From Sipunculus nudus (Eukaryota; Annelida; Sipuncula; Golfingiida; Sipunculidae), in assembly GCA_026874595.1 (NCBI GenBank), contig CM049319.1, positions 505,501-569,500 of the forward strand: a stretch of 64,000 nt of DNA, in the 5' to 3' direction. Under the pieces are notes generated by a model. That model had not been told where the DNA came from. It worked only from the letters and a program-made list of their open reading frames with translations, and ran no database searches. Below, in pieces: positions 2,182 through 37,695 of the stretch. The position numbers were made by a program, and so were the translations under genes. Within the stretch, counting starts at the first letter, position 1; each line of letters begins with the position of its first letter.

Positions 2182-2459
2182 ATTTGTTCCGTGGAGACAA
2201 TGGACTTCAACACCGGGTGCCTCCAGGGGCTGCAGGAAGGGTTTGGTCCGTTGACGTATCAACATTCCATCCATGAACTTAATGTCCGTAAACAGCTGCT
2301 TATAGTCACGTGACGTGTAGTTCCTGGCGGGAGTCATGACGAGGCTCTCATTTGGCGGCCAAAACGTGTCGTCTGGCATCATCCAGGCAGTGCTCATGAA
2401 ACTCCGCTCCATCTCACGCATCAACAGAAGATGAAAATGAGTCAGTCCCAGGCCATCAC
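2182..2459 (-). CDS. PLA2G15: PLA2G15-like lipase, exon after the nucleophile exon
   Basis: The exon has 278 bases, entered in phase 1 and left in phase 0. It is bounded by acceptor CTTTAG at 2465-2460 and donor GTATGT at 2181-2176. The first two bases complete a Gly codon with the preceding exon, giving ISG-DGLGLT, then MREMERSFMSTAWMMP. This matches the PLA2G15 stretch of the form SGDNN...REQQRS...STSWLLP. Later come NYTSRDYKQLFTDIKF and APGVEVHCLHGTN; the Cys in HCLHG matches a conserved family cysteine. NYT is a possible N-glycosylation site. The catalytic Asp and His should lie in the next exon, outside the window. The first 30 bases of this exon reappear, about 26 of 30 identical, in every unit of the adjoining 49-bp repeat, so the true acceptor is the last unit of that array. 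Confidence 0.95.
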
Positions 2460-4640
2460 CTAAAGGTTGAGAAAAGACGGTTTATCGGAGTAATTCCCAG
2501 ACCATCACTTAAAGGTTGAGAAAAGACGATAAAACGGAGTCATAACCAAACCATAAACTAAAGTTTCAGAAAAAAAACGATGAAACGAGGCATTTTCAGA
2601 CAATCACCTGAAGGTTAAGAAAAGACGATGAAACGGAGTCATTGTCAGACCATCAACTAAAGGTTGAGAAAATATTATGAAACGGAGTCATTCAATGACC
2701 ATCAACCAAAGGTTGAGAAAAAACGATTAAACGGAGTCATTCCGAAACCATCAACTAAAGGTTGAGAAAGACAATGAAACGGAGTCATTCCCAGACCATC
2801 ACTTAAAGTTGAGAAAAGACGATGAAACGGAGCCATTCCCAGACCATCCACTAAAGGTTGAGAAAAGACGATTAAACGGAGTCATTCCTAAACCATCATT
2901 TAAAGGTTGAGAACAGATAATGAACCGGAGTCATTCCGAGACCATCACCTAAAGCTTGAGGAAAATATGATGAAACATAATCATTCCCCGACCATCAACG
3001 AAAGGTTGAGAAAAGACGATTAAACGGAGTTATTCTCAAACCATCACCTAAAGGTTCAAAATAGACAATGAAATGGTGTAATTCCCAGACCATCTCCTAA
3101 AAGTTGGGGAAAGACGATTAAACGGAGTCTTTCAAAGTCCACCACCTTAAGGTTGAAAAAAGACGCTAAAACTAATTCATTCCCAGACCATCAACTTGAG
3201 GTTGAGAAAAGGTTATGAAACGGGGTCATTCACAGACCACCACCTAAAGCTTGAGAAAATATGACGAAACAGAGTCATTCCCGACCATCAACCAAAGGTT
3301 GTGAAAAGACGATAAAACGGAGTCATTCTCAAACCATCAACTAAAGGTTAATAAGACGATGAAACGGAGTCATTCCAAGACCATCAACCAAAGGTTGAGA
3401 AAAGACGATGAAACGAAGTCATTCCCAGACCATCAACTTAAGGTTGAGAAAGACGATAAAAGCTAGTCATTCCCAGACCATCAACCAAAGATTGAGAAAA
3501 GACGATGAAACGAAGTCATTCCCAGACCATCAACTTAAGGTTGAGAAAAAGGTTATGAAACGGAGTCATCCACAGACCACCACGTAAAGCTTGAGAAAAT
3601 ATGATGAAACAGAGTCATTCCCGACCATCAACCAAAGGCTGTGAAAAGACGATTAAACGGAGTCATTCTCTAACCATCAACTAAAGGTTGAGAAAAGACG
3701 CTAAAACTGATTCATTCCCAGATCATCAACTTGAGGTTGAGAAAAGGTTATAGAACGGAGTCATTCACAGACCATCACCTAAAGCTTGAGAAAATATAAT
3801 GAAACAGAGTCATTCCCGACCATCAACCAAAGGTTGTGAAAAGACGATAAAACGGAGTCATTCTCAAACCATCAACTAAAGGTTCAGAAGGGACAATGAA
3901 AACGTGTAATTCCCAGACCATCACCTAAAGGTTGAGAAAAGACGATTTAAAGGAGTAATTCCCAGACCATCGACTAAAGGTTGATAAAAGACAATGAGAA
4001 GGTTGTCATTGCCAGACAATCAACTAAAGGTTGAGAAAGACGATGAAACCGAGTCATTCCAAGACCATTAACTAAACGTTGATAAAAGACGATTAAAAGG
4101 AGTAACTCCCAGACCATCACCTAAAGGGTTGGGAAAAGATGATTTAACAGAGTCATTCCTAGACCATCAACTATAGGTTGAGAAACGACGACGAAACGGA
4201 GTCTTCCCAGACCATCAACTAAAGGTTGAAAAAGACGATGAAACGGAGTCAATCCGAGACCATCACCAAAGGTTGAGAAAAGACGATTAAACGGAGTCAT
4301 TCCCAGACCATCAACTTAAGGTTGAGAAAAAGGTTATGAAACGGAGTCATCCACAGACCACCACGTAAAGCTTGAGAAAATATGATGAAACAGAGTCATT
4401 CCCGACCATCAACCAAAGGCTGTGAAAAGACGATTAAACGGAGTCATTCTCTAACCATCAACTAAAGGTTGAGAAAAGACGCTAAAACTGATTCATTCCC
4501 AGATCATCAACTTGAGGTTGAGAAAAGGTTATAGAACGGAGTCATTCACAGACCATCACCTAAAGCTTTAGAAAATATAATGAAACAGAGTCATTCCCGA
4601 CCATCAACCAAAGGTTGAGAAAAGACGAGTCATTCAGAGA
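2460..4640. repeat. 49-bp minisatellite, about 45 units, derived from a splice acceptor
   Basis: Units of about 49 bp run head to tail directly from the acceptor of the 2459-2182 exon. On the plus strand each unit contains GGTTGAGAAAAGACGATGAA followed by a GGAGTCATTCCCAGACCATC-like block. In gene orientation the same unit reads as a pyrimidine-rich tract, CTTTAG, then GTGATGGTCTGGGA and TGACTCCGTTTCATC. That is the intron-exon junction plus about 30 exon bases. Units diverge by point changes and 1-2 bp indels. A block around 3530-3790 recurs around 4310-4560, so there is also higher-order duplication. Many units keep the AG (CTTTAG or CCTTAAG); others have lost it (CTTTGG). Confidence 0.93.
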
Positions 4641-4889
4641 CCATCAGTGGGGAACTGTTGGTTCTGAGGAACTGCCAGACTTCAGCTTGTCATCACACTT
4701 TGTCACAAAAAAATTGTGTCTGTTATAGATGTATCGGTACTAACCCTAACCTTTGAAAGAAAGCAAGTCATCACACTTTATCAATGTAAGGCAAGATTCA
4801 AATTTGATAAAACGACCTTTCCCCACCTATATGTCCGTTACAAAAGGTTGAGAAAAGACGATTTAACGGTGTCGATTCAAAACCAACAA
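4641..4889. other. Spacer between the 49-bp and 62-bp arrays, with stray 49-bp units
   Basis: Most of this spacer is unique sequence with no exon. It contains a short internal duplication: GTCATCACACTTT appears twice, near 4690 and 4769. From about 4843 two degenerate 49-bp units return (GGTTGAGAAAAGACGATTTA, then GGTTGAGAAAAGACC) and run straight into the first 62-bp unit. Confidence 0.7.
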
Positions 4890-5289
4890 GGTTGAGAAAA
4901 GACCACAGTACAGTAGTGGTCAGACAACATCCAGGTGGACAGCTCTACTCCCATTCACATTTTACCACAGTAAAGTACTGGTCAGACAACATCCGTGTGG
5001 ACAACTCTACTAGTCTTCACATTCTAACAGTACAGAACTGTTCATACAACATCCGTGTGGACTACTCTACTCCCCTTCACATTCTACCACAGCACAGTAC
5101 TCGTCAGACAACATCCGTGTGGTCAACTCTACTCCCCTTCACATTCTACCTGAGCACAGTGCTGGTCAGACAACATCCGTGTGGTCAACCCTCCTCCCCT
5201 TCACATTCAACCAGAGTACAGTACTGTTCAGACATCAACCGTGTGGATAACTCTAATTCCCTTCACATTCTACCACAGTACAGTACTGG

Positions 5290-7018
5290 TCAGAAAACAT
5301 CCGTGTGGTCAACTTTACTCCCCATCACATTTCACCACAGTACGGAATTGTTCAGACAACATCCGTGTGGTCAACCCTACTCCCTTTCACATTCTACCTG
5401 AGCACAGTACTGGACAGACAACATCCGTGTGGTCAACCCTACTCCCTTTCACATTCAACCAAGGTCAGTACTGTTCAGACAACATCCGTGTGGTCAACCC
5501 TACTCCCCTTCACATTCTACAACAGTACAGTACTGGTCAGACAACATCCGTGTGGTCAACCCTACTCCGCCTCACATTCAACCAAGGACAGTACTGTTCA
5601 GACAACATCCGTGTGGTCAACCCTACCCCTTTCACATTCTACCTGAGCACAGTACTGGTCAGACAACATCCGTGTGGTCAACCCTACTCCCCTTCACATT
5701 CAACCAGAGTACAGTACTGTTCAGACAACATCCGTGTGGACAACTTTACTCCCCTTCACATTCTATCACAGTACAGCACTGGTCAGACAACATCCGTGTG
5801 GTCAACTTTACTCCCCATCACATTTTACCACAGTACAGAATTGTTCAGACAACATCCGTGTGGTCAACCCTACTCCATTTCACATTCTACCTGAGCACAG
5901 TACTGGTCAGACAACATCCGTGTGGTCAACCCTACTCCCCTTCACATTCAACCAAGGACAGTACTGTTCAGACAACATCCGTGTGGTCAACCCTATTCCC
6001 CTTCACATTCTACCAATAGTACAGTACTGGTCAGACAACATCCGTGTGGTCAACCCTACTCCCCTTCACATTCTACTACAGTTTGTACTGGTCAGACAAC
6101 ATCCGTGTGGACAACTCTACTCCCCTTCACATTCTACCACAGTACAGTACTGGTCAGAAAACATCCGTGTGGTCAACTTTACTCCCCATCACATTTCACC
6201 ACAGTACGGAATTGTTCAGACAACATCCGTGTGGTCAACCCTACTCCCTTTCACATTCTACCTGAGCACAGTACTGGACAGACAACATCCGTGTGGTCAA
6301 CCCTACTCCCTTTCACATTCAACCAAGGACAGTACTGTTCAGACAACATCCGTGTGGTCAACCCTACTCCCCTTCACATTCTACCACAGTACAGTACTGG
6401 TCAGACAACATCCGTGTGGTCAACCCTACTCCGCCTCACATTCAACCAAGGACAGTACTGTTCAGACAACATCCGTGTGGTCAACCCTACCCCTTTCACA
6501 TTCTACCTGAGCACAGTACTGGTCAGACAACATCCGTGTGGTCAACCCTACTCCCCTTCACATTCAACCAGAGTACAGTACTGTTCAGACAACATCCGTG
6601 TGGACAACTTTACTCCCCTTCACATTCTATCACAGTACAGCACTGGTCAGACAACATCCGTGTGGTCAACTTTACTCCCCATCACATTTTACCACAGTAC
6701 AGAATTGTTCAGACAACATCCGTGTGGTCAACCCTACTCCATTTCACATTCTACCTGAGCACAGTACTGGTCAGACAACATCCGTGTGGTCAACCCTACT
6801 CCCCTTCACATTCAACCAAGGACAGTACTGTTCAGACAACATCCGTGTGGTCAACCCTATTCCCCTTCACATTCTACCAATAGTACAGTACTGGTCAGAC
6901 AACATCCGTGTGGTCAACCCTACTCCCCTTCACATTCTACTACAGTTTGTACTGGTCAGACAACATCCGTGTGGACAACTCTACTCCCCTTCACATTCTA
7001 CCACAGTACAGCACTGGT
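5290..7018. repeat. 864-bp higher-order duplication at the left end of the 62-bp array
   Basis: A 14-monomer block is present twice in tandem with an offset of 864 bp (14 x 62 minus 4). Diagnostic variants recur at that offset: CAGAAAACATCC near 5292 and 6156, GTACGGAATTGTTC near 5340 and 6204, and CCAATAGTACAG near 6013 and 6877. The two copies differ by a handful of bases. Confidence 0.85.
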
Positions 7019-7900
7019 CAGACAACATCCGTGTGGTCAACTTTACTCCCCATCACATTTTACCACAGTACAGAATTGTTCAGACAACATCCGTGTGGTC
7101 AACCCTACTCCATTTCACATTCTACCTGAGCACAGTACTGGTCAGACAACATCCGTGTGGTCAACCCTACTCCATTTCACATTCTACCTGAGCACAGTAC
7201 TGGTCAGACAACTTCCGTGTGGTCAACCCTATTCCCCTTCACATTCTACCAATAGTACAGTACTGGTCAGACAACATCCGTGTGGTCAACCCTAATACGT
7301 TTCACATTCTACCTGAGCACAGTACTGGTCAGACAACATCCGTGTGGACAACCCTATTCCCCTTCACATTCTACCACAGTACAGTACTGGTCAGACAACA
7401 TCCGTGTGGACAACTCTACTCCCCTTCACAATCTACCGTAGTACAGTACTGGTCAGACAACATCCGTGTGGTCAACTTTACTCCCCTTCACATTCTACCA
7501 CAGTACTGGACAGACAACATCCGTGTGGTCAACTCTACTCCCCATCAGATTTTACCACAGTACAGTACTGGTCAGACAACACCCGTGTGGACAACCCTAC
7601 TCCCCTTCACATTCTACTGCAGTACAGTACTGGACAGACAACATACGTGTGGTCAACTCTACTCCCCATCACATTCTACCACAGTACAGTACTGTTCAGA
7701 CAACATCCGTGTGGTCAACCCTATGCATTTCACATTCTACCTGAGCACAGTACTGGTCAGACAACATCCGTGTGGTCAACCCTACTCCCCTTCACATTCA
7801 ACCAGAGTACAGTACTGTTCAGACGACATCCGTGTGGACAACTTTACTCCCCTTCACATTCTACCACAGTACAGCACTGGTCAGACAACATCCGTGTGGT

Positions 7901-10900
7901 CGACTTTACTCCCCATCACATTTTACCACAGTACAGAATTGTTCAGACAACATCCGTGTGGTCAACCCTACTCCATTTCACATTCTACCTGAGCACAGTA
8001 CTGGTCAGACAACATCCGTGTGGTCAACCCTACTCCCCTTCACAATCAACCAAGGACAGTACTGTTCAGACAACATCCCTGTGGTCAACCCTATTCCCCT
8101 TCACATTCTACCAATAGTACAGTACTGGTCAGACAACATCCGTGTGGTCAACCCTAATACGTTTCACATTCTACCTGAGCACAGTACTGGTCAGACAACA
8201 TCCGTGTGGACAAATTTACTCCCCTTCACATTCTACCGTATTACAGCACTGGTCAGACAACATCCGTGTGGTCAACTTTACTCCCCTTCACATTCTACCA
8301 CAGTACAGTACTGGTCAGACAACATCCGTGTGGTCAACTCTACTCCCCTTCACATTCTACCGTAGTACAGCACTGGTCAGACAACATCCGTGTGGTCAAC
8401 TTTACTCCCCTTCACATTCTACCTGAGCACAGTACTGGACAGACAACATCCGTGTGGACAACTCTACTCCCCTTCACATTCTACCGTAGTACAGCACTGG
8501 TCAGACAACATCCGTGTGGTCAACTTTACTCCCCTTCACATTCTACCACAGTACAGTACTGGACAGACATATCCGTGTGGTCAACTTTACTCCCCTTCAC
8601 ATTCTACCGTAGTACAGCACTTGTCAGACAACATCCGTGTGGACAACTCTACTCCCCTTCACATTCTACCGTAGTACAGCACTGGTCAGACAACATCCGT
8701 GTGGTCAACTTTACTCCCCTTCACATTCTACCACAGTACAGTACTGGACAGACATATCCGTGTGGTCAACTTTACTCCCCTATACATTCTACCGTAGTAC
8801 AGCACTGGTCAGACAACATCCGTGTGGTCAACTTTACTCCCCTTCACATTCTACCACAGTACAGTACTGGACAGACAACATCCGTGTGGTCAACCCTACT
8901 CCCCTTCACATTCTACCACAGTACAGTACTGGACAGACAACATCCGTGTGGTCAACTTTACTCCCCTTCACATTCTACCGTAGTACAGTACTGGACAGAC
9001 AACATCCGTGTGGTCAACTTTACTCCCCTTCACATTCTACCACAGTACAGTACTGGACAGACAACATCCGTGTGGACAACTCTACTCCTCTTCACATTCT
9101 ACCGTAGTACAGTACTGGTCGGACATCATCCGTGTGGTCAACTTTACTCCCCTTCACATTCTACCACAGTACAGTACTGGACAGACAACATCCGTGTCGA
9201 CAACTCTACTCCCCTTCACATTCTACCGTAGTACAGTACTGGTCAGACAACATCCGTGTGGTCAACTTTACTCCCCTTCACATTCTACCACAGTACAGCA
9301 CTGGTCAGACAACATCCGTGTGGACAACTCTACTCCCCTTCACATTCTACCGTTGTACAGCACTGATCAGACAACATCCGTGTGGTCAACTTTACTCCCC
9401 TTCACATTCTACCACAGTACAGTACTGGACAGACAACATCCGTGTGGACAACTCTACTCCCCTTCACATTCTACCGTAGTACAGTACTGGTCAGACAACA
9501 TCCGTGTGGTCAACTTTACTCCCCTTCACATTCTACCACAGTACAGTACTGGACAGACAACATCCGTGTGGACAACTCTACTCCCCTTCACATTCTACCG
9601 TAGTACAGTACTGGTCAGACTACATCCGTGTGGTCAACTTTACTCCCCTTCACATTCTACCACAGTACAGTACTGGACAGACAACATCCGTGTGGTCAAC
9701 TTTACTCCCCTTCACATTCTACCGTAGTACAGCACTGGTCAGACAACATCCGTGTGGTCAACTTTACTCCCCTTCACATTCTACCACAGTACAGTACTGG
9801 TCATACAACATCCGTGTGGACAACTCTACTCCCCTTCACATTCTATCGTAGTACAGTACTGGTCAGACAACATCCGTGTGGTCAACTTTATTCCCCTTCA
9901 CATTCTACCACAGTACAGTACTGGACAGACAACATCGGTGTGGTCAACTTTACTCCCCTTCACATTCTACCGGAGTACAGGACTGGTCAGACAACATCCG
10001 TGTGGTCAACTTTACTCCCCTTCACATTCTACCGCAGTACAGTACTGTTCAGACAACATCCGTGTGGACAACTCTACTCCCCTTCACATTCTACCGTAGT
10101 ACAGCACTGGTCAGACAACATCCGTGTGGTCAACTTTACTCCCCTTCACATTCTACCGTAGTACAGTACTGGTCAGACAACATCCGTGTGGTCAACTTTA
10201 CTCCCCTTCACATTCTACCGTAGTACAGCACTGGTCAGACAACATCCGTGTGGTCAACTTTACTCCCCTTCACATTCTACCGTAGTACAGAACTGGTCAG
10301 ACAACATCCGTGTGGTCAACTTTACTCCCCTTCACATTCTACCGTAGTACAGTACTGGTCAGACAACATCCGTGTGGACAACTCTACTCCCCTTCACATT
10401 CTACCGTAGTACAGAACTGGTCAGACAACATCCGTGTGGTCAACTTTACTCCCCTTCACATTCTACCACAGTACAGTACTGGTCAGACAACATCCGTGTG
10501 GTCAACTTTACTCCCCTTCACATTCTACCGTAGTACAGCACTGGTCAGACAACATCCGTGTGGTCAACTTTACTCCCCTTTACATTCTACCGTAGTACAG
10601 CACTGGTCAGACAACATCCGTGGGGACAACTCTACTCCCCTTCACATTCTACCGTAGTACAGGACTGGTCAGACAACATCCGTGTGGTCAATTTTACTCC
10701 CCTTCACATTCTACCACAGTACAGTACTGGACAGACAACATCCGTGTGGTCAACTTTACTCCCCTTCACATTCTACCGTAGTACAGCACTGGTCAGACAA
10801 CATCCGTGTGGTCAACTTTACTCCCCTTCACATTCTACCACAGTACAGTACTGGTCATACAACATCCGTGTGGACAACTCTACTCCCCTTCACATTCTAC

Positions 10901-13900
10901 CGTAGTACAGTACTGGTCAGACAACATCCGTGTGGTCAACTTTACTCCCCTTCACATTCTACCACAGTACAGTACTGGACAGACAACATCCGTTCGGTCA
11001 ACTTTACTCCCCTTCACATTCTACCGGAGTACAGTACTGGTCAGACAACAATCGTGTGGTCAACTTTACTCCCCTTCACATTCTACCGTAGTACAGCACT
11101 GGTCAGACAACATCCGTGTGGTCAACTTTACTCCCCTTCACATTCTACCACAGTACAGTACTGGTCAGACAACATCCGTGTGGACAACTCTACTCCCCTT
11201 CACATTCTACCGTAGTACAGTACTAGTCAGACAACATCCGTGTGGTCAACTTTACTCCCCTTCACATTCTACCACAGTACAGTACTGGACAGACAACATC
11301 CGTGTGGTCAACTTTACTCCCCTTCACATTCTACCGTAGTACAGTACTGGTCAGACAACATCCGTGTGGTCAACTTTACTCCCCTTCACATTCTACCGTA
11401 GTACAGTACTGGTCAGACAACATCCGTGTGGTCAACTTTACTCCCCTTCACATTCTACCGTAGTACAGTACTGGTCAGACAACATCCGTGTGGTCAACTT
11501 TACTCCCCTTCACATTCTACCGTAGTACAGCACTGGTCAGACAACATCCGTGTGGTCAACTTTACTCCCCTTCACATTCTACCGTAGTACAGCACTGGTC
11601 AGACAACATCCGTGTGGTCAACTTTACTCCCCTTCACATTCTACCGTAGTACAGCACTGGTCAGACAACATCCGTGTGGTCAACTTTACTCCCCTTCACA
11701 TTCTACCGTAGTACAGCACTGGTCAGACAACATCCGTGTGGTCAACTTTACTCCCCTTGACATTCTACCGTAGTACAGAACTGGTCAGACAACATCCGTG
11801 TGGTCAACTCTACTCCCCTTCACATTCTACCGTAGTACAGTACTGGTCAGACAACATCCGTGTGGTCAACTTTACTCTCCTTCACATTCTACCGTAGTAC
11901 AGCACTGGTCAGACAACATCCGTGTGGTCAACTTTACTCCCCTTCACATTCTACCGTAGTACAGTACTGGTCAGACAACATCCGTGTGGTCAACTTTACT
12001 CCCCTTCACATTCTACCACAGTACAGTACTGGACAGACATATCCGTGTGGTCAACTTTACTCCCCTTCACATTCTACCGTAGTACAGCACTGGTCAGACA
12101 ACATCCGTGTGGTCAACTTTACTCCCCTTCACATTCTACCACAGTACAGTACTGGTCAGACAACATCCGTGTGGACAACTCTACTCCCCTTCACATTCTA
12201 CCGTAGTACAGTACTAGTCAGACAACATCCGTGTGGTCAACTTTACTCCCCTTCACATTCTACCACAGTACAGTACTGGACAGACAACATCCGTGTGGTC
12301 AACTTTACTCCCCTTCACATTCTACCGTAGTACAGCACTGGTCAGACAACATCCGTGTGGTCAACTTTACTCCCCTTCACATTCTACCGTAGTACAGTAC
12401 TGGTCAGAAAACATCCGTGTGGACAACTCTACTCCCCTTCACATTCTACCGTAGTACAGCACTGGTCAGACAACATCCGTGTGGTTAACTTTACTCCCCT
12501 TCACATTCTACCGTAGTACAGTACTGGTCAGACAACATCCGTGTGGTCAACTTTACTCCCCTTCACATTCTACCGTAGTACAGCACTGGTCAGACAACAT
12601 CCGTGTGGTCAACTTTACTCCCCTTCACATTCTACCGTAGTACAGTACTGGTCAGACAACATCCGTGTGGTCAACTTTACTCCCCTTGACATTCTACCGT
12701 AGTACAGAACTGGTCAGACAACATCCGTGTGGTCAACTCTACTCCCCTTCACATTCTACCGTAGTACAGTACTGGTCAGACAACATCCGTGTGGTCAACT
12801 TTACTCCCCTTCACATTCTACCGTAGTACAGCACTGGTCAGACAACATCCGTGTGGTCAACTTTACTCCCCTTCACATTCTACCGTAGTACAGTACTGGT
12901 CAGACAACATCCGTGTGGTCAACTTTACTCCCCTTCACATTCTACCACAGTACAGTACTGGACAGACATATCCGTGTGGTCAACTTTACTCCCCTTCACA
13001 TTCTACCGTAGTACAGCACTGGTCAGACAACATCCGTGTGGTCAACTTTACTCCCCTTCACATTCTACCACAGTACAGTACTGGAGAGACAACATCCGTG
13101 TGGTCAACTTTACTCCCCTTCACATTCTACCACAGTACAGTACTGGACAGACAACATCCGTGTGGTCAACTTTACTCCCCTTCACATTCTACCACAGTAC
13201 AGTACTGGACAGACATATCCGTGTGGTCAACTTTACTCCCCTTCACATTCTACCACAGTACAGTACTGGACAGACAACATCCGTGTGGACAACTCTACTC
13301 CCCTTCACATTCTACCGTAGTACAGTACTGGTCAGACAACATCCGTGTGGTCAACTTTACTCCCCTTCACATTCTACCGTAGTACAGCACTGGTCAGACA
13401 ACATCCGTGTGGTCAACTTTACTCCCCTTCACATTCTACCGTAGTACAGAACTGGTCAGACAACATCCGTGTGGTCAACTTTACTCCCCTTCACATTCTA
13501 CCGTAGTACAGTACTGGTCAGACAACATCCGTGTGGACAACTCTACTGCCCTTCACATTCTACCGTAGTACAGAACTGGTCAGACAACATCCGTGTGGTC
13601 AACTTTACTCCCCTTCACATTCTACCACAGTACAGTACTGGTCAGACAACATCCGTGTGGTCAACTTTACTCCCCTTCACATTCTACCGTAGTACAGCAC
13701 TGGTCAGACAACATCCGTGTGGTCAACTTTACTCCCCTTGACATTCTACCGTAGTACAGAACTGGTCAGACAACATCCGTGTGGTCAACTCTACTCCCCT
13801 TCACATTCTACCGTAGTACAGTACTGGTCAGACAACATCCGTGTGGTCAACTTTACTCCCCTTCACATTCTACCGTAGTACAGCACTGGTCAGACAACAT

Positions 13901-16100
13901 CCGTGTGGTCAACTTTACTCCCCTTCACATTCTACCGTAGTACAGTACTGGTCAGACAACATCCGTGTGGTCGACTTTACTCCCCATCACATTTTACCAC
14001 AGTACAGAATTGTTCAGACAACATCCGTGTGGTCAACCCTACTCCATTTCACATTCTACCTGAGCACAGTACTGGTCAGACAACATCCGTGTGGTCAACC
14101 CTACTCCCCTTCACAATCAACCAAGGACAGTACTGTTCAGACAACATCCCTGTGGTCAACCCTATTCCCCTTCACATTCTACCAATAGTACAGTACTGGT
14201 CAGACAACATCCGTGTGGTCAACCCTAATACGTTTCACATTCTACCTGAGCACAGTACTGGTCAGACAACATCCGTGTGGACAAATTTACTCCCCTTCAC
14301 ATTCTACCGTATTACAGCACTGGTCAGACAACATCCGTGTGGTCAACTTTACTCCCCTTCACATTCTACCACAGTACAGTACTGGTCAGACAACATCCGT
14401 GTGGTCAACTCTACTCCCCTTCACATTCTACCGTAGTACAGCACTGGTCAGACAACATCCGTGTGGTCAACTTTACTCCCCTTCACATTCTACCTGAGCA
14501 CAGTACTGGACAGACAACATCCGTGTGGACAACTCTACTCCCCTTCACATTCTACCGTAGTACAGCACTGGTCAGACAACATCCGTGTGGTCAACTTTAC
14601 TCCCCTTCACATTCTACCACAGTACAGTACTGGACAGACATATCCGTGTGGTCAACTTTACTCCCCTTCACATTCTACCGTAGTACAGCACTTGTCAGAC
14701 AACATCCGTGTGGACAACTCTACTCCCCTTCACATTCTACCGTAGTACAGCACTGGTCAGACAACATCCGTGTGGTCAACTTTACTCCCCTTCACATTCT
14801 ACCACAGTACAGTACTGGACAGACATATCCGTGTGGTCAACTTTACTCCCCTATACATTCTACCGTAGTACAGCACTGGTCAGACAACATCCGTGTGGTC
14901 AACTTTACTCCCCTTCACATTCTACCACAGTACAGTACTGGACAGACAACATCCGTGTGGTCAACCCTACTCCCCTTCACATTCTACCACAGTACAGTAC
15001 TGGACAGACAACATCCGTGTGGTCAACTTTACTCCCCTTCACATTCTACCGTAGTACAGTACTGGACAGACAACATCCGTGTGGTCAACTTTACTCCCCT
15101 TCACATTCTACCACAGTACAGTACTGGACAGACAACATCCGTGTGGACAACTCTACTCCTCTTCACATTCTACCGTAGTACAGTACTGGTCGGACATCAT
15201 CCGTGTGGTCAACTTTACTCCCCTTCACATTCTACCACAGTACAGTACTGGACAGACAACATCCGTGTCGACAACTCTACTCCCCTTCACATTCTACCGT
15301 AGTACAGTACTGGTCAGACAACATCCGTGTGGTCAACTTTACTCCCCTTCACATTCTACCACAGTACAGCACTGGTCAGACAACATCCGTGTGGACAACT
15401 CTACTCCCCTTCACATTCTACCGTTGTACAGCACTGATCAGACAACATCCGTGTGGTCAACTTTACTCCCCTTCACATTCTACCACAGTACAGTACTGGA
15501 CAGACAACATCCGTGTGGACAACTCTACTCCCCTTCACATTCTACCGTAGTACAGTACTGGTCAGACAACATCCGTGTGGTCAACTTTACTCCCCTTCAC
15601 ATTCTACCACAGTACAGTACTGGACAGACAACATCCGTGTGGACAACTCTACTCCCCTTCACATTCTACCGTAGTACAGTACTGGTCAGACTACATCCGT
15701 GTGGTCAACTTTACTCCCCTTCACATTCTACCACAGTACAGTACTGGACAGACAACATCCGTGTGGTCAACTTTACTCCCCTTCACATTCTACCGTAGTA
15801 CAGCACTGGTCAGACAACATCCGTGTGGTCAACTTTACTCCCCTTCACATTCTACCACAGTACAGTACTGGTCATACAACATCCGTGTGGACAACTCTAC
15901 TCCCCTTCACATTCTATCGTAGTACAGTACTGGTCAGACAACATCCGTGTGGTCAACTTTATTCCCCTTCACATTCTACCACAGTACAGTACTGGACAGA
16001 CAACATCGGTGTGGTCAACTTTACTCCCCTTCACATTCTACCGGAGTACAGGACTGGTCAGACAACATCCGTGTGGTCAACTTTACTCCCCTTCACATTC
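7901..16100. repeat. Higher-order repeat with 6071-bp offset in the 62-bp array
   Basis: Sequence from about 7901 recurs from 13972 (offset 6071 = 98 x 62 minus 5). The rare variant GTGGTCGACTTTACTCC marks both starts. The match continues, including private variants such as CCTATACATTC and GTCGGACATCATCC, until about 16100. There the second copy jumps back to an earlier point of the unit. Confidence 0.88.
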
Positions 16101-17526
16101 TACCGTAGTACAGCACTTGTCAGACAACATCCGTGTGGACAACTCTACTCCCCTTCACATTCTACCGTAGTACAGCACTGGTCAGACAACATCCGTGTGG
16201 TCAACTTTACTCCCCTTCACATTCTACCACAGTACAGTACTGGACAGACATATCCGTGTGGTCAACTTTACTCCCCTATACATTCTACCGTAGTACAGCA
16301 CTGGTCAGACAACATCCGTGTGGTCAACTTTACTCCCCTTCACATTCTACCACAGTACAGTACTGGACAGACAACATCCGTGTGGTCAACCCTACTCCCC
16401 TTCACATTCTACCACAGTACAGTACTGGACAGACAACATCCGTGTGGTCAACTTTACTCCCCTTCACATTCTACCGTAGTACAGTACTGGACAGACAACA
16501 TCCGTGTGGTCAACTTTACTCCCCTTCACATTCTACCACAGTACAGTACTGGACAGACAACATCCGTGTGGACAACTCTACTCCTCTTCACATTCTACCG
16601 TAGTACAGTACTGGTCGGACATCATCCGTGTGGTCAACTTTACTCCCCTTCACATTCTACCACAGTACAGTACTGGACAGACAACATCCGTGTCGACAAC
16701 TCTACTCCCCTTCACATTCTACCGTAGTACAGTACTGGTCAGACAACATCCGTGTGGTCAACTTTACTCCCCTTCACATTCTACCACAGTACAGCACTGG
16801 TCAGACAACATCCGTGTGGACAACTCTACTCCCCTTCACATTCTACCGTTGTACAGCACTGATCAGACAACATCCGTGTGGTCAACTTTACTCCCCTTCA
16901 CATTCTACCACAGTACAGTACTGGACAGACAACATCCGTGTGGACAACTCTACTCCCCTTCACATTCTACCGTAGTACAGTACTGGTCAGACAACATCCG
17001 TGTGGTCAACTTTACTCCCCTTCACATTCTACCACAGTACAGTACTGGACAGACAACATCCGTGTGGACAACTCTACTCCCCTTCACATTCTACCGTAGT
17101 ACAGTACTGGTCAGACTACATCCGTGTGGTCAACTTTACTCCCCTTCACATTCTACCACAGTACAGTACTGGACAGACAACATCCGTGTGGTCAACTTTA
17201 CTCCCCTTCACATTCTACCGTAGTACAGCACTGGTCAGACAACATCCGTGTGGTCAACTTTACTCCCCTTCACATTCTACCACAGTACAGTACTGGTCAT
17301 ACAACATCCGTGTGGACAACTCTACTCCCCTTCACATTCTATCGTAGTACAGTACTGGTCAGACAACATCCGTGTGGTCAACTTTATTCCCCTTCACATT
17401 CTACCACAGTACAGTACTGGACAGACAACATCGGTGTGGTCAACTTTACTCCCCTTCACATTCTACCGGAGTACAGGACTGGTCAGACAACATCCGTGTG
17501 GTCAACTTTACTCCCCTTCACATTCT
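14677..17526. repeat. 1425-bp tandem duplication of 23 monomers
   Basis: The rare variant CAGCACTTGTCAGAC occurs at about 14687 and again 1425 bp later (23 x 62 minus 1). The sequence after each matches for the whole block, so about 1.4 kb was duplicated in tandem inside an existing higher-order copy. Confidence 0.85.
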
Positions 17527-20500
17527 ACCGCAGTACAGTACTGTTCAGACAACATCCGTGTGGACAACTCTACTCCCCTTCACATTCTACCGTAGTACAG
17601 CACTGGTCAGACAACATCCGTGTGGTCAACTTTACTCCCCTTCACATTCTACCGTAGTACAGTACTGGTCAGACAACATCCGTGTGGTCAACTTTACTCC
17701 CCTTCACATTCTACCGTAGTACAGCACTGGTCAGACAACATCCGTGTGGTCAACTTTACTCCCCTTCACATTCTACCGTAGTACAGAACTGGTCAGACAA
17801 CATCCGTGTGGTCAACTTTACTCCCCTTCACATTCTACCGTAGTACAGTACTGGTCAGACAACATCCGTGTGGACAACTCTACTCCCCTTCACATTCTAC
17901 CGTAGTACAGAACTGGTCAGACAACATCCGTGTGGTCAACTTTACTCCCCTTCACATTCTACCACAGTACAGTACTGGTCAGACAACATCCGTGTGGTCA
18001 ACTTTACTCCCCTTCACATTCTACCGTAGTACAGCACTGGTCAGACAACATCCGTGTGGTCAACTTTACTCCCCTTTACATTCTACCGTAGTACAGCACT
18101 GGTCAGACAACATCCGTGGGGACAACTCTACTCCCCTTCACATTCTACCGTAGTACAGGACTGGTCAGACAACATCCGTGTGGTCAATTTTACTCCCCTT
18201 CACATTCTACCACAGTACAGTACTGGACAGACAACATCCGTGTGGTCAACTTTACTCCCCTTCACATTCTACCGTAGTACAGCACTGGTCAGACAACATC
18301 CGTGTGGTCAACTTTACTCCCCTTCACATTCTACCACAGTACAGTACTGGTCATACAACATCCGTGTGGACAACTCTACTCCCCTTCACATTCTACCGTA
18401 GTACAGTACTGGTCAGACAACATCCGTGTGGTCAACTTTACTCCCCTTCACATTCTACCACAGTACAGTACTGGACAGACAACATCCGTTCGGTCAACTT
18501 TACTCCCCTTCACATTCTACCGGAGTACAGTACTGGTCAGACAACAATCGTGTGGTCAACTTTACTCCCCTTCACATTCTACCGTAGTACAGCACTGGTC
18601 AGACAACATCCGTGTGGTCAACTTTACTCCCCTTCACATTCTACCACAGTACAGTACTGGTCAGACAACATCCGTGTGGACAACTCTACTCCCCTTCACA
18701 TTCTACCGTAGTACAGTACTAGTCAGACAACATCCGTGTGGTCAACTTTACTCCCCTTCACATTCTACCACAGTACAGTACTGGACAGACAACATCCGTG
18801 TGGTCAACTTTACTCCCCTTCACATTCTACCGTAGTACAGTACTGGTCAGACAACATCCGTGTGGTCAACTTTACTCCCCTTCACATTCTACCGTAGTAC
18901 AGTACTGGTCAGACAACATCCGTGTGGTCAACTTTACTCCCCTTCACATTCTACCGTAGTACAGTACTGGTCAGACAACATCCGTGTGGTCAACTTTACT
19001 CCCCTTCACATTCTACCGTAGTACAGCACTGGTCAGACAACATCCGTGTGGTCAACTTTACTCCCCTTCACATTCTACCGTAGTACAGCACTGGTCAGAC
19101 AACATCCGTGTGGTCAACTTTACTCCCCTTCACATTCTACCGTAGTACAGCACTGGTCAGACAACATCCGTGTGGTCAACTTTACTCCCCTTCACATTCT
19201 ACCGTAGTACAGCACTGGTCAGACAACATCCGTGTGGTCAACTTTACTCCCCTTGACATTCTACCGTAGTACAGAACTGGTCAGACAACATCCGTGTGGT
19301 CATCTCTACTCCCCTTCACATTCTACCGTAGTACAGTACTGGTCAGACAACATCCGTGTGGTCAACTTTACTCTCCTTCACATTCTACCGTAGTACAGCA
19401 CTGGTCAGACAACATCCGTGTGGTCAACTTTACTCCCCTTCACATTCTACCGTAGTACAGTACTGGTCAGACAACATCCGTGTGGTCAACTTTACTCCCC
19501 TTCACATTCTACCACAGTACAGTACTGGACAGACATATCCGTGTGGTCAACTTTACTCCCCTTCACATTCTACCGTAGTACAGCACTGGTCAGACAACAT
19601 CCGTGTGGTCAACTTTACTCCCCTTCACATTCTACCACAGTACAGTACTGGTCAGACAACATCCGTGTGGACAACTCTACTCCCCTTCACATTCTACCGT
19701 AGTACAGTACTAGTCAGACAACATCCGTGTGGTCAACTTTACTCCCCTTCACATTCTACCACAGTACAGTACTGGACAGACAACATCCGTGTGGTCAACT
19801 TTACTCCCCTTCACATTCTACCGTAGTACAGCACTGGTCAGACAACATCCGTGTGGTCAACTTTACTCCCCTTCACATTCTACCGTAGTACAGTACTGGT
19901 CAGAAAACATCCGTGTGGACAACTCTACTCCCCTTCACATTCTACCGTAGTACAGCACTGGTCAGACAACATCCGTGTGGTTAACTTTACTCCCCTTCAC
20001 ATTCTACCGTAGTACAGTACTGGTCAGACAACATCCGTGTGGTCAACTTTACTCCCCTTCACATTCTACCGTAGTACAGCACTGGTCAGACAACATCCGT
20101 GTGGTCAACTTTACTCCCCTTCACATTCTACCGTAGTACAGTACTGGTCAGACAACATCCGTGTGGTCAACTTTACTCCCCTTGACATTCTACCGTAGTA
20201 CAGAACTGGTCAGACAACATCCGTGTGGTCAACTCTACTCCCCTTCACATTCTACCGTAGTACAGTACTGGTCAGACAACATCCGTGTGGTCAACTTTAC
20301 TCCCCTTCACATTCTACCGTAGTACAGCACTGGTCAGACAACATCCGTGTGGTCAACTTTACTCCCCTTCACATTCTACCGTAGTACAGTACTGGTCAGA
20401 CAACATCCGTGTGGTCAACTTTACTCCCCTTCACATTCTACCACAGTACAGTACTGGACAGACATATCCGTGTGGTCAACTTTACTCCCCTTCACATTCT

Positions 20501-23500
20501 ACCGTAGTACAGCACTGGTCAGACAACATCCGTGTGGTCAACTTTACTCCCCTTCACATTCTACCACAGTACAGTACTGGAGAGACAACATCCGTGTGGT
20601 CAACTTTACTCCCCTTCACATTCTACCACAGTACAGTACTGGACAGACAACATCCGTGTGGTCAACTTTACTCCCCTTCACATTCTACCACAGTACAGTA
20701 CTGGACAGACATATCCGTGTGGTCAACTTTACTCCCCTTCACATTCTACCACAGTACAGTACTGGACAGACAACATCCGTGTGGACAACTCTACTCCCCT
20801 TCACATTCTACCGTAGTACAGTACTGGTCAGACAACATCCGTGTGGTCAACTTTACTCCCCTTCACATTCTACCGTAGTACAGCACTGGTCAGACAACAT
20901 CCGTGTGGTCAACTTTACTCCCCTTCACATTCTACCGTAGTACAGAACTGGTCAGACAACATCCGTGTGGTCAACTTTACTCCCCTTCACATTCTACCGT
21001 AGTACAGTACTGGTCAGACAACATCCGTGTGGACAACTCTACTGCCCTTCACATTCTACCGTAGTACAGAACTGGTCAGACAACATCCGTGTGGTCAACT
21101 TTACTCCCCTTCACATTCTACCACAGTACAGTACTGGTCAGACAACATCCGTGTGGTCAACTTTACTCCCCTTCACATTCTACCGTAGTACAGCACTGGT
21201 CAGACAACATCCGTGTGGTCAACTTTACTCCCCTTGACATTCTACCGTAGTACAGAACTGGTCAGACAACATCCGTGTGGTCAACTCTACTCCCCTTCAC
21301 ATTCTACCGTAGTACAGTACTGGTCAGACAACATCCGTGTGGTCAACTTTACTCCCCTTCACATTCTACCGTAGTACAGCACTGGTCAGACAACATCCGT
21401 GTGGTCAACTTTACTCCCCTTCACATTCTACCGTAGTACAGTACTGGTCAGACAACATCCGTGTGGTCAACTTTACTCCCCTTCACATTCTACCACAGTA
21501 CAGTACTGGACAGACATATCCGTGTGGTCAACTTTACTCCCCTTCACATTCTACCGTAGTACAGCACTGGTCAGACAACATCCGTGTGGTCAACTTTACT
21601 CCCCTTCACATTCTACCACAGTACAGTACTGGAGAGACAACATCCGTGTGGTCAACTTTACTCCCCTTCACATTCTACCAAAGTACAGTACTGGACAGAC
21701 AACATCCGTGTGGTCAACTTTACTCCCCTTCACATTCTACCACAGTACAGTACTGGACAGACATATCCGTGTGGTCAACTTTACTCCCCTTCACATTCTA
21801 CCACAGTACAGTACTGGACAGACAACATCCGTGTGGACAACTCTACTCCCCTTCACATTCTACCGTAGTACAGTACTGGTCAGACAACATCCGTGTGGTC
21901 AACTTTACTCCCCTTCACATTCTACCGTAGTACAGTACTGGTCAGACAACATCCGTGTGGTCAACTTTACTCCCCTTCACATTCTACCGTAGTACAGAAC
22001 TGGTCAGACAACATCCGTGTGGTCAACTTTACTCCCCTTCACATTCTACCGTAGTACAGTACTGGTCAGACAACATCCGTGTAGACAACTCTACTCCCCT
22101 TCACATTCTACCGTAGTACAGAACTGGTCAGACAACATCCGTGTGGTCAACTTTACTCCCCTTCACATTCTACCACAGTACAGTACTGGTCAGACAACAT
22201 CCGTGTGGTCAACTTTACTCCCCTTCACATTCTACCGTAGTACAGTACTGGTCAGACAACATCCGTGTGGTCAACTTTACTCCCCTTCACATTCTACCGT
22301 AGTACAGCACTGGTCAGACAACATCCGTGTGGTCAACTTTACTCCCCTTCACATTCTACCGTAGTACAGAACTGGTCAGACAACATCCGTGTGGTCAACT
22401 TTACTCCCCTTCACATTCTACCGTAGTACAGTACTGGTCAGACAACATCCGTGTGGACAACTCTACTCCTCTTCACATTCTACCGTAGTACAGAACTGGT
22501 CAGACAACATCCGTGTGGTCAACTTTACTCCCCTTCACATTCCACCACAGTACAGTACTGGTCAGACAACATCCGTGTGGTCAACTTTAGTCCCCTTCAC
22601 ATTCTACCGTAGTACAGTACTGGTCAGACAACATCCGTGTGGTCAACTTTACTCCCCTTCACATTCTACCGTAGTACAGCACTGGTCAGACAACATCCGT
22701 GTGGTCAACTTTACTCCCCTTCACATTCTACCACAGTACAGTACTGGACAGACAACATCCGTGTGGTCAACTCTACTCCCCATCATATTTTACCACAGTA
22801 CAGTACTGGTCAGACAACATCCGTGTGGTCAACCCTACTCCCCTTCACATTCTACTGCAGTACAGTACTGGACAGACAACATACGTGTGGTCAACTTTAC
22901 TCCCCTTCACATTCTACCGTAGTACAGTACTGGACAGACAACATCCGTGTGGTCAACTTTACTCCCCTTCACATTCTACCACAGTACAGTACTGGACAGA
23001 CAACATCCGTGTGGACAACTCTACTCCTCTTCACATTCTACCGTAGTACAGTACTGGTCGGACATCATCCGTGTGGTCAACTTTACTCCCCTTCACATTC
23101 TACCACAGTACAGTACTGGACAGACAACATCCGTGTCGACAACTCTACTCCCCTTCACATTCTACCGTAGTACAGTACTGGTCAGACAACATCCGTGTGG
23201 TCAACTTTACTCCCCTTCACATTCTACCACAGTACAGCACTGGTCAGACAACATCCGTGTGGACAACTCTACTCCCCTTCACATTCTACCGTTGTACAGC
23301 ACTGATCAGACAACATCCGTGTGGTCAACTTTACTCCCCTTCACATTCTACCACAGTACAGTACTGGACAGACAACATCCGTGTGGACAACTCTACTCCC
23401 CTTCACATTCTACCGTAGTACAGTACTGGTCAGACAACATCCGTGTGGTCAACTTTACTCCCCTTCACATTCTACCACAGTACAGTACTGGACAGACAAC

Positions 23501-26500
23501 ATCCGTGTGGACAACTCTACTCCCCTTCACATTCTACCGTAGTACAGTACTGGTCAGACTACATCCGTGTGGTCAACTTTACTCCCCTTCACATTCTACC
23601 ACAGTACAGTACTGGACAGACAACATCCGTGTGGTCAACTTTACTCCCCTTCACATTCTACCGTAGTACAGCACTGGTCAGACAACATCCGTGTGGTCAA
23701 CTTTACTCCCCTTCACATTCTACCACAGTACAGTACTGGTCATACAACATCCGTGTGGACAACTCTACTCCCCTTCACATTCTATCGTAGTACAGTACTG
23801 GTCAGACAACATCCGTGTGGTCAACTTTATTCCCCTTCACATTCTACCACAGTACAGTACAGGACAGACAACATCGGTGTGGTCAACTTTACTCCCCTTC
23901 ACATTCTACCGGAGTACAGGACTGGTCAGACAACATCCGTTTGGTCAACTTTACTCCCCTTCACATTCTACCGCAGTACAGTACTGTTCACACAACATCC
24001 GTGTGGACAACTCTACTCCCCTTCACATTCTACCGTAGTACAGCACTGGTCAGACAACATCCGTGTGGTCAACTTTACTCCCCTTCACATTCTACCGTAG
24101 TACAGTACTGGTCAGACAACATCCGTGTGGTCAACTTTACTCCCCTTCACATTCTACCGTAGTACAGCACTGGTCAGACAACATCCGTGTGGTCAACTTT
24201 ACTCCCCTTCACATTCTACCGTAGTACAGAACTGGTCAGACAACATCCGTGTGGTCAACTTTACTCCCCTTCACATTCTACCGTAGTACAGTACTGGTCA
24301 GACAACATCCGTGTGGACAACTCTACTCCCCTTCACATTCTACCGTAGTACAGAACTGGTCAGACAACATCCGTGTGGTCAACTTTACTCCCCTTCACAT
24401 TCTACCACAGTACAGTACTGGTCAGACAACATCCGTGTGGTCAACTTTACTCCCCTTCACATTCTACCGTAGTACAGCACTGGTCAGACAACATCCGTGT
24501 GGTCAACTTTACTCCCCTTTACATTCTACCGTAGTACAGCACTGGTCAGACAACATCCGTGGGGACAACTCTACTCCCCTTCACATTCTACCGTAGTACA
24601 GGACTGGTCAGACAACATCCGTGTGGTCAATTTTACTCCCCTTCACATTCTACCACAGTACAGTACTGGACAGACAACATCCGTGTGGTCAACTTTACTC
24701 CCCTTCACATTCTACCGTAGTACAGCACTGGTCAGACAACATCCGTGTGGTCAACTTTACTCCCCTTCACATTCTACCACAGTACAGTACTGGTCATACA
24801 ACATCCGTGTGGACAACTCTTCTCCCCTTCACATTCTACCGTAGTACAGTACTGGTCAGACAACATCCGTGTGGTCAACTTTACTCCCCTTCACATTCTA
24901 CCACAGTACAGTACTGGACAGACAACATCCGTTCGGTCAACTTTACTCCCCTTCACATTCTACCGGAGTACAGTACTGGTCAGACAACAATCGTGTGGTC
25001 AACTTTACTCCCCTTCACATTCTACCGTAGTACAGCACTGGTCAGACAACATCCGTGTGGTCAACTTTACTCCCCTTCACATTCTACCACAGTACAGTAC
25101 TGGTCAGACAACATCCGTGTGGACAACTCTACTCCCCTTCACATTCTACCGTAGTACAGTACTAGTCAGACAACATCCGTGTGGTCAACTTTACTCCCCT
25201 TCACATTCTACCACAGTACAGTACTGGACAGACAACATCCGTGTGGTCAACTTTACTCCCCTTCACATTCTACCGTAGTACAGTACTGGTCAGACAACAT
25301 CCGTGTGGTCAACTTTACTCCCCTTCACATTCTACCGTAGTACAGTACTGGTCAGACAACATCCGTGTGGTCAACTTTACTCCCCTTCACATTCTACCGT
25401 AGTACAGTACTGGTCAGACAACATCCGTGTGGTCAACTTTACTCCCCTTCACATTCTACCGTAGTACAGCACTGGTCAGACAACATCCGTGTGGTCAACT
25501 TTACTCCCCTTCACATTCTACCGTAGTACAGCACTGGTCAGACAACATCCGTGTGGTCAACTTTACTCCCCTTCACATTCTACCGTAGTACAGCACTGGT
25601 CAGACAACATCCGTGTGGTCAACTTTACTCCCCTTCACATTCTACCGTAGTACAGCACTGGTCAGACAACATCCGTGTGGTCAACTTTACTCCCCTTGAC
25701 ATTCTACCGTAGTACAGAACTGGTCAGACAACATCCGTGTGGTCAACTCTACTCCCCTTCACATTCTACCGTAGTACAGTACTGGTCAGACAACATCCGT
25801 GTGGTCAACTTTACTCTCCTTCACATTCTACCGTAGTACAGCACTGGTCAGACAACATCCGTGTGGTCAACTTTACTCCCCTTCACATTCTACCGTAGTA
25901 CAGTACTGGTCAGACAACATCCGTGTGGTCAACTTTACTCCCCTTCACATTCTACCACAGTACAGTACTGGACAGACATATCCGTGTGGTCAACTTTACT
26001 CCCCTTCACATTCTACCGTAGTACAGCACTGGTCAGACAACATCCGTGTGGTCAACTTTACTCCCCTTCACATTCTACCACAGTACAGTACTGGTCAGAC
26101 AACATCCGTGTGGACAACTCTACTCCCCTTCACATTCTACCGTAGTACAGCACTGGTCAGACAACATCCGTGTGGTCAACTTTACTCCCCTTCACATTCT
26201 ACCGTAGTACAGTACTGGTCAGACAACATCCGTGTGGTCAACTTTACTCCCCTTCACATTCTACCACAGTACAGTACTGGACAGACATATCCGTGTGGTC
26301 AACTTTACTCCCCTTCACATTCTACCGTAGTACAGCACTGGTCAGACAACATCCGTGTGGTCAACTTTACTCCCCTTCACATTCTACCACAGTACAGTAC
26401 TGGAGAGACAACATCCGTGTGGTCAACTTTACTCCCCTTCACATTCTACCACAGTACAGTACTGGACAGACAACATCCGTGTGGTCAACTTTACTCCCCT

Positions 26501-35200: not shown

Positions 35201-35499
35201 CAGACAACATCCGTGTGGTCAACCCTACTCCCCTTCACATTCTACTGCAGTACAGTACTGGACAGACAACAAACGTGTGGTCAACTCTACTCCCCATCAC
35301 ATTCTACCACAGTACAGCACTGGTCAGACAACATCCGTGTGGTCAACTCTACTCCCCATCACATTCTACCACAGTACAGTACTGGTCAGACAACATCCGT
35401 GTGGACAACTCTACTCCCCTTCACATTCTATCGTAGTACAGCACTGGTCAGACAACATCCGTGTGGTCAACTCTACTCCCCATCACATTCTACCACAGT

Positions 35500-37300
35500 A
35501 CAGTACTGGTCAGACAACATCCGTGTGGACAACTCTACTCCCCGTCACATTCTATCGTAGTACAGTACTGGTCAGACAACATCCGTGTGGACAACTCTAC
35601 TCCCCTTCACATTCTATCGTAGTACAGCACTGGTCAGACAACATCCGTGTGGTCAACTCTACTCCCCTTCACATTCTACCGTAGTACAGTACTGGTCAGA
35701 CAACATCCGTGTGGACAACTCTACTCCCCTTCACATTCTATCGTAGTACAATACTGGTCAGACAACATCCGTGTGGACAACTCTACTCCCCTTCACATTC
35801 TATCGTAGTACAGCACTGGTCAGACAACATCCGTGTGGACAACTCTACTCCCCTTCACATTCTATCGTAGTACAGTACTGGTCAGACAACATCCGTGTGG
35901 ACAACTCTACTCCCCTTCACATTCTATCGTAGTACAGCACTGGTCAGACAACATCCGTGTGGACAACTCTACTCCCCTTCACATTCTACCGTAGTACAGT
36001 ACTGTTCAGACAATATCCGTGTGGAAATCTCTACTCCCTTTCACATTCTACCACAGTACAGTACTGGTCAGACAACATCCGTGTGGTCAACTCTACTCCC
36101 AATCACATTCTACTACAGTACAGCACTGGTCAGACAACATCCGTGTGGTCAACTCTATTCCCCATCACATTCTACCACAGTACAGTACTGGTCAGACAAC
36201 ATCCGTGTGGTCAACTCTACTCCCCATCACATTCTACCACAGTACAGCACTGGTCAGACAACATCCGTGTGGTCAACTCTACTCCCCATCACATTCTACC
36301 ACAGTACAGCACTGTTCAGACAACATCCGTGTGGATATCTCTACTCCCTTTCACATTCTACCACAGTACAGTACTGGTCAGACAACATCCGTGTGGACAA
36401 CTCTACTCCCCTTCACATTCTATCGTAGTACAGCACTGGTCAGACAACATCCGTGTGGTCAACTCTACTCCCCATCACATTCTACCACAGTACAGTACTG
36501 GTCAGACAACATCCGTGTGGACAACTCTACTCCCCGTCACATTCTATCGTAGTACAGTACTGGTCAGACAACATCCGTGTGGACAACTCTACTCCCCTTC
36601 ACATTCTATCGTAGTACAGCACTGGTCAGACAACATCCGTGTGGTCAACTCTACTCCCCTTCACATTCTACCGTAGTACAGTACTGGTCAGACAACATCC
36701 GTGTGGACAACTCTACTCCCCTTCACATTCTATCGTAGTACAGCACTGGTCAGACAACATCCGTGTGGACAACTCTACTCCCCTTCACATTCTATCGTAG
36801 TACAGCACTGGTCAGACAACATCCGTGTGGACAACTCTACTCCCCTTCACATTCTATCGTAGTACAGTACTGGTCAGACAACATCCGTGTGGACAACTCT
36901 ACTCCCCTTCACATTCTATCGTAGTACAGCACTGGTCAGACAACATCCGTGTGGACAACTCTACTCCCCTTCACATTCTACCGTAGTACAGTACTGTTCA
37001 GACAACATCCGTGTGGAAATCTCTACTCCCTTTCACATTCTACCACAGTACAGTACTGGTCAGACAACATCCGTGTGGTCAACTCTACTCCCCATCACAT
37101 TCTACCACAGTACAGCACTGGTCAGACAACATCCGTGTGGTCAACTCTACTCCCCATCACATTCTACCACAGTACAGTACTGGTCAGACAACATCCGTGT
37201 GGACAACTCTACTCCCCTTCACATTCTATCGTAGTACAGTACTGGTCAGACAACATCCGTGTGGACAACTCTACTCCCCTTCACATTCTATCGTAGTACA
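35500..37300. repeat. 992-bp duplication at the right end of the 62-bp array
   Basis: A 16-monomer block is repeated at an offset of exactly 992 bp. The variant GTGGAAATCTCTACTCCC occurs at about 36022 and 37014. The surrounding TATCGTAGTACAG-type units match between copies. The outermost units, up to 37695, decay into non-repetitive sequence. Confidence 0.8.
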
Positions 37301-37695
37301 GTACTGGTCAGACAACATCCGTGTGGACAACTCTACTCCCCATCATATTTTTCCACAGTACAGTACTGGTCAGACAACATCCCTGTGGAAATCTCTACTC
37401 CCCTTCACATTCTACCACAGTACAGTACTGGTTAGACAACATCCGTGTGGACAACTCTACTCCCCATCATATTTTTCCACAGTACAGTACTGGTTAGACA
37501 ACATCCGTGTGGAAATCTCTACTCCCCTTCACATTCTACCACAGTACAGTACTGGTCAGACAACATCCGTGTGGTCAACCCTGCTCAACCTCCCATTAGA
37601 CCACAGAACAGTACTGGTCAGACAACAACCGTGTTTTCAATTCTACTCCACATTATACGTAAGCGGCTAACAGTACTGCACAAACAACATCCGTG

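Follow-up and report, generated by a model that had tools for sequence, protein, structure and literature searches.

A 49-bp minisatellite spanning the 3' splice site of a lipase gene in Sipunculus nudus

How is one 3' splice site chosen when the intron end before it consists of near-copies of that site, and how does such an array come to exist? Both questions are raised by a lipase gene on the minus strand of a 64,000-nucleotide stretch of Sipunculus nudus DNA, referred to hereafter as the window, in which all positions are counted unless a contig or locus is named. The first-pass annotation of this DNA had proposed that the gene's 3' splice site, together with the exon edge, is the sequence copied in a 49-bp minisatellite next to one of the lipase exons, and the analysis described here supports that proposal. 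The array spans the intron/exon boundary. Arrays of this type are not a new category, as 'mirage' minisatellites have already been described in amphioxus, where the globin genes BflGb6 and BflGb9 and the Adh3 gene carry them, according to the account in PMC3087553; TnC and imperfect cases in PGBD5 were added in PMC3902484. New here are the spiralian host and the 45 units, many more than in the globin examples. The correct acceptor of the lipase gene can moreover be recognized from paralogues. The locus is thus a natural test of how the spliceosome settles on a single 3' splice site out of some 30 near-copies, and also of whether copies that start with GT protect the gene by re-splicing.

The repeat unit and the exon edge

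The lipase is of the PLA2G15/LCAT type (PF02450). The family profile scored 86.7 bits in the frame of exon A and 34.6 bits in that of exon B (E=1.7e-8 for exon B), against a curated cut-off of 21. The two exons are separated by an intron of about 36 kb, and the 49-bp array lies at its 3' end (Table 1). The donors of exons A and B fit the exon ends given in the first-pass annotation. Exon C, just outside the window (L011, L012), carries GDGDGTVN and AHTQ or DHTQ. We take HSMG, GDGDGTVN and the His of the lipase to be the catalytic residues.

Table 1. Coordinates of features at the lipase locus in the window (a slash marks a splice junction)
Feature	Position	Strand	Details and basis
Exon B	2182..2459	-	PF02450; phase-1 entry SG/DGLGLTHFHLL...; donor ACAAAT/GTATGT at 2181
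Exon edge, the last, partial repeat copy	2423..2459	-	31/37 identical to TRF-type (G form) consensus, 30/37 to majority-base (T form) consensus
True acceptor, 12 intronic bases CTCAACCTTTAG	2460..2471	-	register: unit columns 38-49
49-bp minisatellite	2460..4607	-	true acceptor preceded by 44 unit junctions; TRF and unit alignment
Strongest decoy by the rough matrix	2605..2627 (acceptor 2607)	-	CTTCAG/GTGATT, 12.08 bits versus 10.41
Decoy identical to the true site, -20 to +3	3922..3944 (acceptor 3924)	-	sequence and matrix
Relic 49-bp units	4840..4903	-	longer matches 81-87% identical to the consensus
62-bp minisatellite	4907..37649	.	about 529 copies, taking up most of this intron; TRF
Exon A, homologous part (HSMG, ...LLISG)	38448..38658	-	donor TTTCAG/GTAACA at 38447; last exon base 38448

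TRF, run on the window, reported the 49-bp unit in 45.1 copies between 2426 and 4628 with 77% matches, and a higher-order period of 342 bp within the array; a partial unit continues to about 4640. Units were delimited by wrap-around alignment to the consensus and share a mean identity of about 80%. Each straddles the intron/exon boundary, with about 12 intron bases (CTCAACCTTTAG) and 37 exon-like bases. The first unit base after the AG is T in 28, G in 15 and A in one of the 44 upstream units, and G in the TRF consensus. Inside the exon-like part lie a branch-point-like TTCAT, at unit columns 25-29, and a good share of the pyrimidine tract, which begins at column 30; each unit thus seems to owe its acceptor context largely to former coding sequence. 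The relic units lie beyond an interruption and adjoin the 62-bp array; in the interruption itself, at 4650-4839, two copies of AAAGTGTGATGAC were seen by eye.

Aligned without gaps, the edge of exon B is identical to the TRF consensus (G form) at 26 of 30 bases, as the first-pass annotation had estimated, and at 25 of 30 to the majority-base consensus (T form). The best ungapped match ends at exon base 37. Its score of 25 for the G form was reached by none of 5000 mononucleotide shuffles (maximum 17) and by none of 7412 real 60-mers (maximum 12), which were overlapping and taken from both strands of the window between 38 and 64 kb. That a T-rich array should resemble the exon edge by chance is therefore exceedingly improbable. 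The acceptor 2460/2459 is the final unit junction, at one end of the array, and the statement that the real acceptor is the last unit thus stands. All 56 listed matches of the 49-bp unit in the 1.43-Gb assembly fall in this intron or in a tandem copy of the gene; the search scores best candidates only, and weak copies elsewhere are possible.

The tandem copy is part of a repeat with a period of about 64.7 kb that contains the lipase gene and covers about 496001-596337 of the contig (G000:C14), of which the window is 505501-569500. Three stretches compared between the repeats were 99.2-99.8% identical. The 49-bp array has the same number of units in the two gene copies and differs by one substitution. 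The 64.7-kb repeat may be a genuine duplication, or the assembly may have set two haplotypes one after the other. In the second copy the distance from exon A to the 49-bp array is ~17 kb shorter, presumably within the 62-bp array, and exon C differs beside the presumed catalytic His (GIAHTQ versus GIDHTQ; L011:8884-9111, L012:118-345). In both copies the three exons A, B and C have open reading frames and show the family motifs, which suggests that correct splicing is presumably preserved in enough transcripts.

Other repeats were also recorded. The 62-bp unit has all 139 of its listed genome matches at this locus and the tandem copy. A 57-bp array of ~124 copies at 42942-50005 starts at the point where the second gene copy (L013) ceases to be similar, and TRF found another period-49 array, with a different consensus, at 56357-57433. 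On the minus strand at 1251-1910 a reverse-transcriptase-like reading was noticed by eye (VNLNKTKVMVFRG); Pfam returned nothing in 1251-1646.

Decoy acceptors and their probable fate

The first-pass annotation had counted some 45 decoy acceptors. There are indeed 44 decoy junctions, but an AG is kept in register at only 29 of them (30/45 junctions with the true one included). The form AG/GT occurs at 10/45 junctions, true one included, and hence at nine decoys; the other 35 junctions are without it. It had also been argued that decoys shift the reading frame because 49 is not a multiple of 3. This was too mild: reading on from exon A through any of the 44 decoy junctions, whether or not it has AG and whatever its distance from the true site, leads to an in-frame stop within 191 nt. 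Any use of a decoy would therefore truncate the protein, and frame is not the point.

Scoring the units with a splice-site model had been proposed as a check and was carried out with a rough 3' splice-site matrix; this matrix and the donor matrix used below are approximations and are not trained on this genome. Scores were taken over 23 bases, from -20 to +3, for the true site and for each of the 72 remaining AGs in 4910-2459. By this matrix the true acceptor scored 10.41 bits, and two of the 72, both unit junctions, were at or above it (2607 at 12.08 and 3924 at 10.41). Thirteen of the 72 were above it or within 2 bits. The three best unit decoys by the same matrix, 2607, 3924 and 4120, are all AG/GT. 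A yUnAy motif was found at -15 to -45 from 37/45 junctions, and the true site, 3924 and 4120 are among the eight without one. The true site is thus not marked out by this branch-point motif, and nothing found in the sequence explains its winning. When changes were counted on a unit tree, each of the two AG bases had three, compared with a mean of 2.7 per column; with the low power of this tree, there was no sign that the AG columns had been kept or purged by selection. Column 27, the free position of the yUnAy-like TTCAT, changed seven times and column 11 eight times.

We consider it probable that the array is a mirage-type minisatellite copied from the exon edge, and that its decoys are mostly passive. 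A 49-bp segment comprising ~12 intron bases and the first 37 bases of exon B would have been duplicated in tandem, the direction and steps being those we infer, and further amplification within the intron would then have brought it to about 45 units. With the exon edge as the last unit, the pyrimidine stretch in front of the true acceptor would lie in a unit of largely coding origin. The downstream exon and its donor may favour the last acceptor and leave the decoys mostly passive, and transcripts that do use a decoy would carry an early stop and be lost. The array would otherwise drift as an ordinary minisatellite, consistent with the unit tree.

A less likely reading, raised in the first-pass annotation as a possible effect on expression or a length-dependent splicing, is that the decoys set expression. 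Some transcripts would take an upstream unit, hit a stop and be degraded, so that array length would tune lipase output. The decoy that shares all 23 scored bases with the true site, the one that scores higher, and the 13 of 72 AGs within 2 bits or above are all consistent with such competition. The human ABCA7 VNTR provides evidence on both sides in the account of PMC5954066: exon 19 skipping and reduced expression are correlated with its length, but the isoform that retains one unit, made possible by the donor that each unit carries, is constant across VNTR lengths. For the amphioxus globin and Adh3 arrays, RT-PCR and earlier data are described as suggesting that regular splicing is undisturbed (PMC3087553), and at the lipase locus the equal unit number in the two tandem gene copies also speaks against tuning by length.

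It is improbable that decoys erase themselves. Units with AG/GTGAT would on this reading be putative recursive (dual-specific) sites: a decoy acceptor, once joined to exon A, would rebuild a CAG/GTGAT donor, and a second, scarless splice would lead to the true acceptor. Ten of the 45 junctions, the true one included, have the AG/GT that this route requires, as do the three best decoys as acceptors. Joined to the CAG of exon A, decoy 2607 (GTGATT) would rebuild a donor of 8.49 bits, those at 4559, 4120, 3924, 3778, 3047 and 2948 (GTGATG) donors of 7.22 bits, and those at 3243 and 3145 (GTGGTG) donors of 4.66 bits. Seven of the nine would thus be at least as good as the native donor of exon A (7.02 bits; exon B donor 6.15) by the rough matrix. 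Human UBC makes use of dual-specific AGGT sites within a tandem array, as described in PMC10809524. Against this, the donor matrix is approximate and not trained on this genome, the +5 base (T) is non-consensus in every rebuilt donor, and 3924 and 4120 are without yUnAy at -15 to -45. Twenty of the 29 AG decoys are not AG/GT and would be beyond such rescue, and AG/GT is a trivial outcome of copying an exon that begins GTGATG. Because only 9/29 AG decoys have this form, and because copying alone would be expected to produce it, we kept the probability low. If true, such a route would account for the survival of genes whose boundary minisatellites have reached dozens of units.

Exon edge or array first

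The first-pass annotation had left it open whether the exon edge seeded the array or was formed by it. An exon-wise search of the same assembly found four further family members besides the tandem copy, one on C6, one on C11 and two on C3. The C3 members are without an intron at the position in question. The C6 and C11 paralogues have an intron at the same position, with exon A ending ...LLASG and exon B starting GDNMG or GDNLG after the ordinary acceptors TTACAG and CAACAG, and are without the 49-bp array. In the register of the exon the 49-bp unit encodes GDGLG, which matches the G-D-x-[LM]-G of these two intron-bearing paralogues; human PLA2G15 shares the GD. Exon B is also collinear with human PLA2G15 (PDB 4x90), without gaps across the edge (SGDNNRIPVIGPLKIREQQRS).

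At the nucleotide level the paralogues resemble the unit weakly at best. Over 46 bases the similarity of their edges to the unit was not significant, as 2941/3000 shuffles for C6 and 709/3000 for C11 were as good. Over the first 14 unit bases C11 matched at 7/14 and C6 at 8/14, scores equalled by 1095 and 529 of 20000 shuffles, respectively. At the protein level, residues 6-11 of the exon edge (LTHFHL) are unlike any relative compared, and the edge had lower identity than the remainder of the exon in comparison with C6 (4/13 versus 46/79, Fisher p=0.08), C11 (5/13 versus 47/79, p=0.23) and PLA2G15 (3/13 versus 37/79, p=0.14). This low identity, together with the unmatched LTHFHL, leaves room for a later overwriting of part of the exon by the array.

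Taken further, the same residues would fit the opposite order of events, in which a minisatellite that was already present spread across the acceptor and replaced roughly the first 12 codons of exon B. We regard this as doubtful. The G-D-x-[LM]-G is common to both intron-bearing paralogues (the GD alone to PLA2G15), exon length across the edge has been kept, and the unit was seen only at this locus and its tandem copy among the listed genome matches. Nor is the edge especially near the units: its mean distance from them is 0.264, compared with 0.204 between units, and 3/44 units are as far. Most likely, then, the exon edge seeded the array rather than being formed by it, a reading favoured by the shared motif, the ungapped PLA2G15 alignment and the occurrence of the unit at this locus among the matches listed. 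Of the two origins named in the first-pass annotation, seeding is thus favoured by the paralogues and PLA2G15, and formation by the array less so, although partial overwriting of the exon is possible.

By the PDB alignment and the numbering of LCAT, the array-matching residues presumably fall in the N-terminal part of the active-site lid. In human LCAT this lid is described as comprising residues 225-232, the most variable in conformation between structures, and residues 233-249 (PMC6277198).

TRF was also run on 26 loci of this genome, 10 of LCAT type (some overlapping, with L005 and L006 the locus itself) and 16 homeobox loci. Two of the arrays there, both at the C6 paralogue, were compared with exon edges, which does not amount to a survey; both were considered as second mirages and rejected. 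One, of 27 bp (L003:1775-2030), lies just upstream of exon A and was aligned as well by 870/3000 shuffles. The other, of 29 bp (L010:2351-2887), lies in the same intron ~600 bp before exon B, and its similarity to the edge was matched by 2200/3000 shuffles. Its presence there indicates that minisatellites are common in these introns, which counts against a mirage reading.

Related systems and other contigs

Canestro et al. 2002 is reportedly linked to the amphioxus mirage minisatellites. As described for BflGb6 in PMC3087553, the segment that the lipase array repeats in tandem, in minisatellite-like fashion, joins the 3' end of the intron to the 5' part of the exon. As in the amphioxus mirages, many but not all units keep AG/GT signals (here AG at 30/45 and AGGT at 10/45), and unit divergence is similar (81-100% identity in BflGb6, a mean of about 80% here). 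The 45 units of 49 bp contrast with the 6 and 3 units of 150-160 bp in two haplotypes of BflGb6, while the Adh3 units are 10-72 bp (PMC3087553). The host here is a spiralian and not a lancelet, and the intron of about 36 kb contains a second, larger minisatellite. Among the Hox-type genes on C12 of the same assembly, one has KLTGP after the homeodomain and two have ...IKELNE...; we take KLTGP to be Lox5-like and IKELNE to be Lox4/Lox2-like, presumably spiralian Hox signatures.

Several human systems share single traits with the array, as far as the parts of the cited sources consulted describe them. In UBC and VCX3A, tandem arrays contain AG/GT able to act as acceptor and donor, as may be so here; in UBC, however, the units are coding and the sites delimit the monomers, whereas here the units are intronic, only 10/45 have AG/GT and dual use is putative (PMC10809524). 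The ABCA7 intron 18 VNTR is likewise a minisatellite at an exon border and takes in a native splice site, but on the donor side, with a 25-bp unit, polymorphism in people and a measured effect on splicing (PMC5954066). Tandem repeats in human segmental duplications are also minisatellites that alter recently duplicated genes, some through cryptic splice sites, but those cases concern human paralogues, average four units of 30 bp and are about half coding (PMC2812944). Intron gain by tandem duplication similarly ties a duplication to new splice signals; here, in contrast, an intron of shared position has been lengthened and no new intron was seen (PMC4974935).

In the openly licensed literature, as far as its text could be consulted, we found no boundary-spanning minisatellite in a spiralian, and such a case may be in print. 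The nearest accounts concern earthworm metallothionein, with intronic minisatellites and untranscribed exon duplications but no copied splice site reported in the part of the source at hand (PMC12783039), and cone-snail gene structure, where the part at hand describes microsatellites only (PMC3862624).

Some contigs of the S. nudus assembly carry sequence of another kind. Several between C60 and C90, as well as C123, contain bacterial-looking COX1 and cytochrome b, and are perhaps symbionts or contaminants. For one bacterial-looking COX1 the best relative, 59% identical, is in an Oligoflexia MAG. A small piece of COX1 is present on C5.
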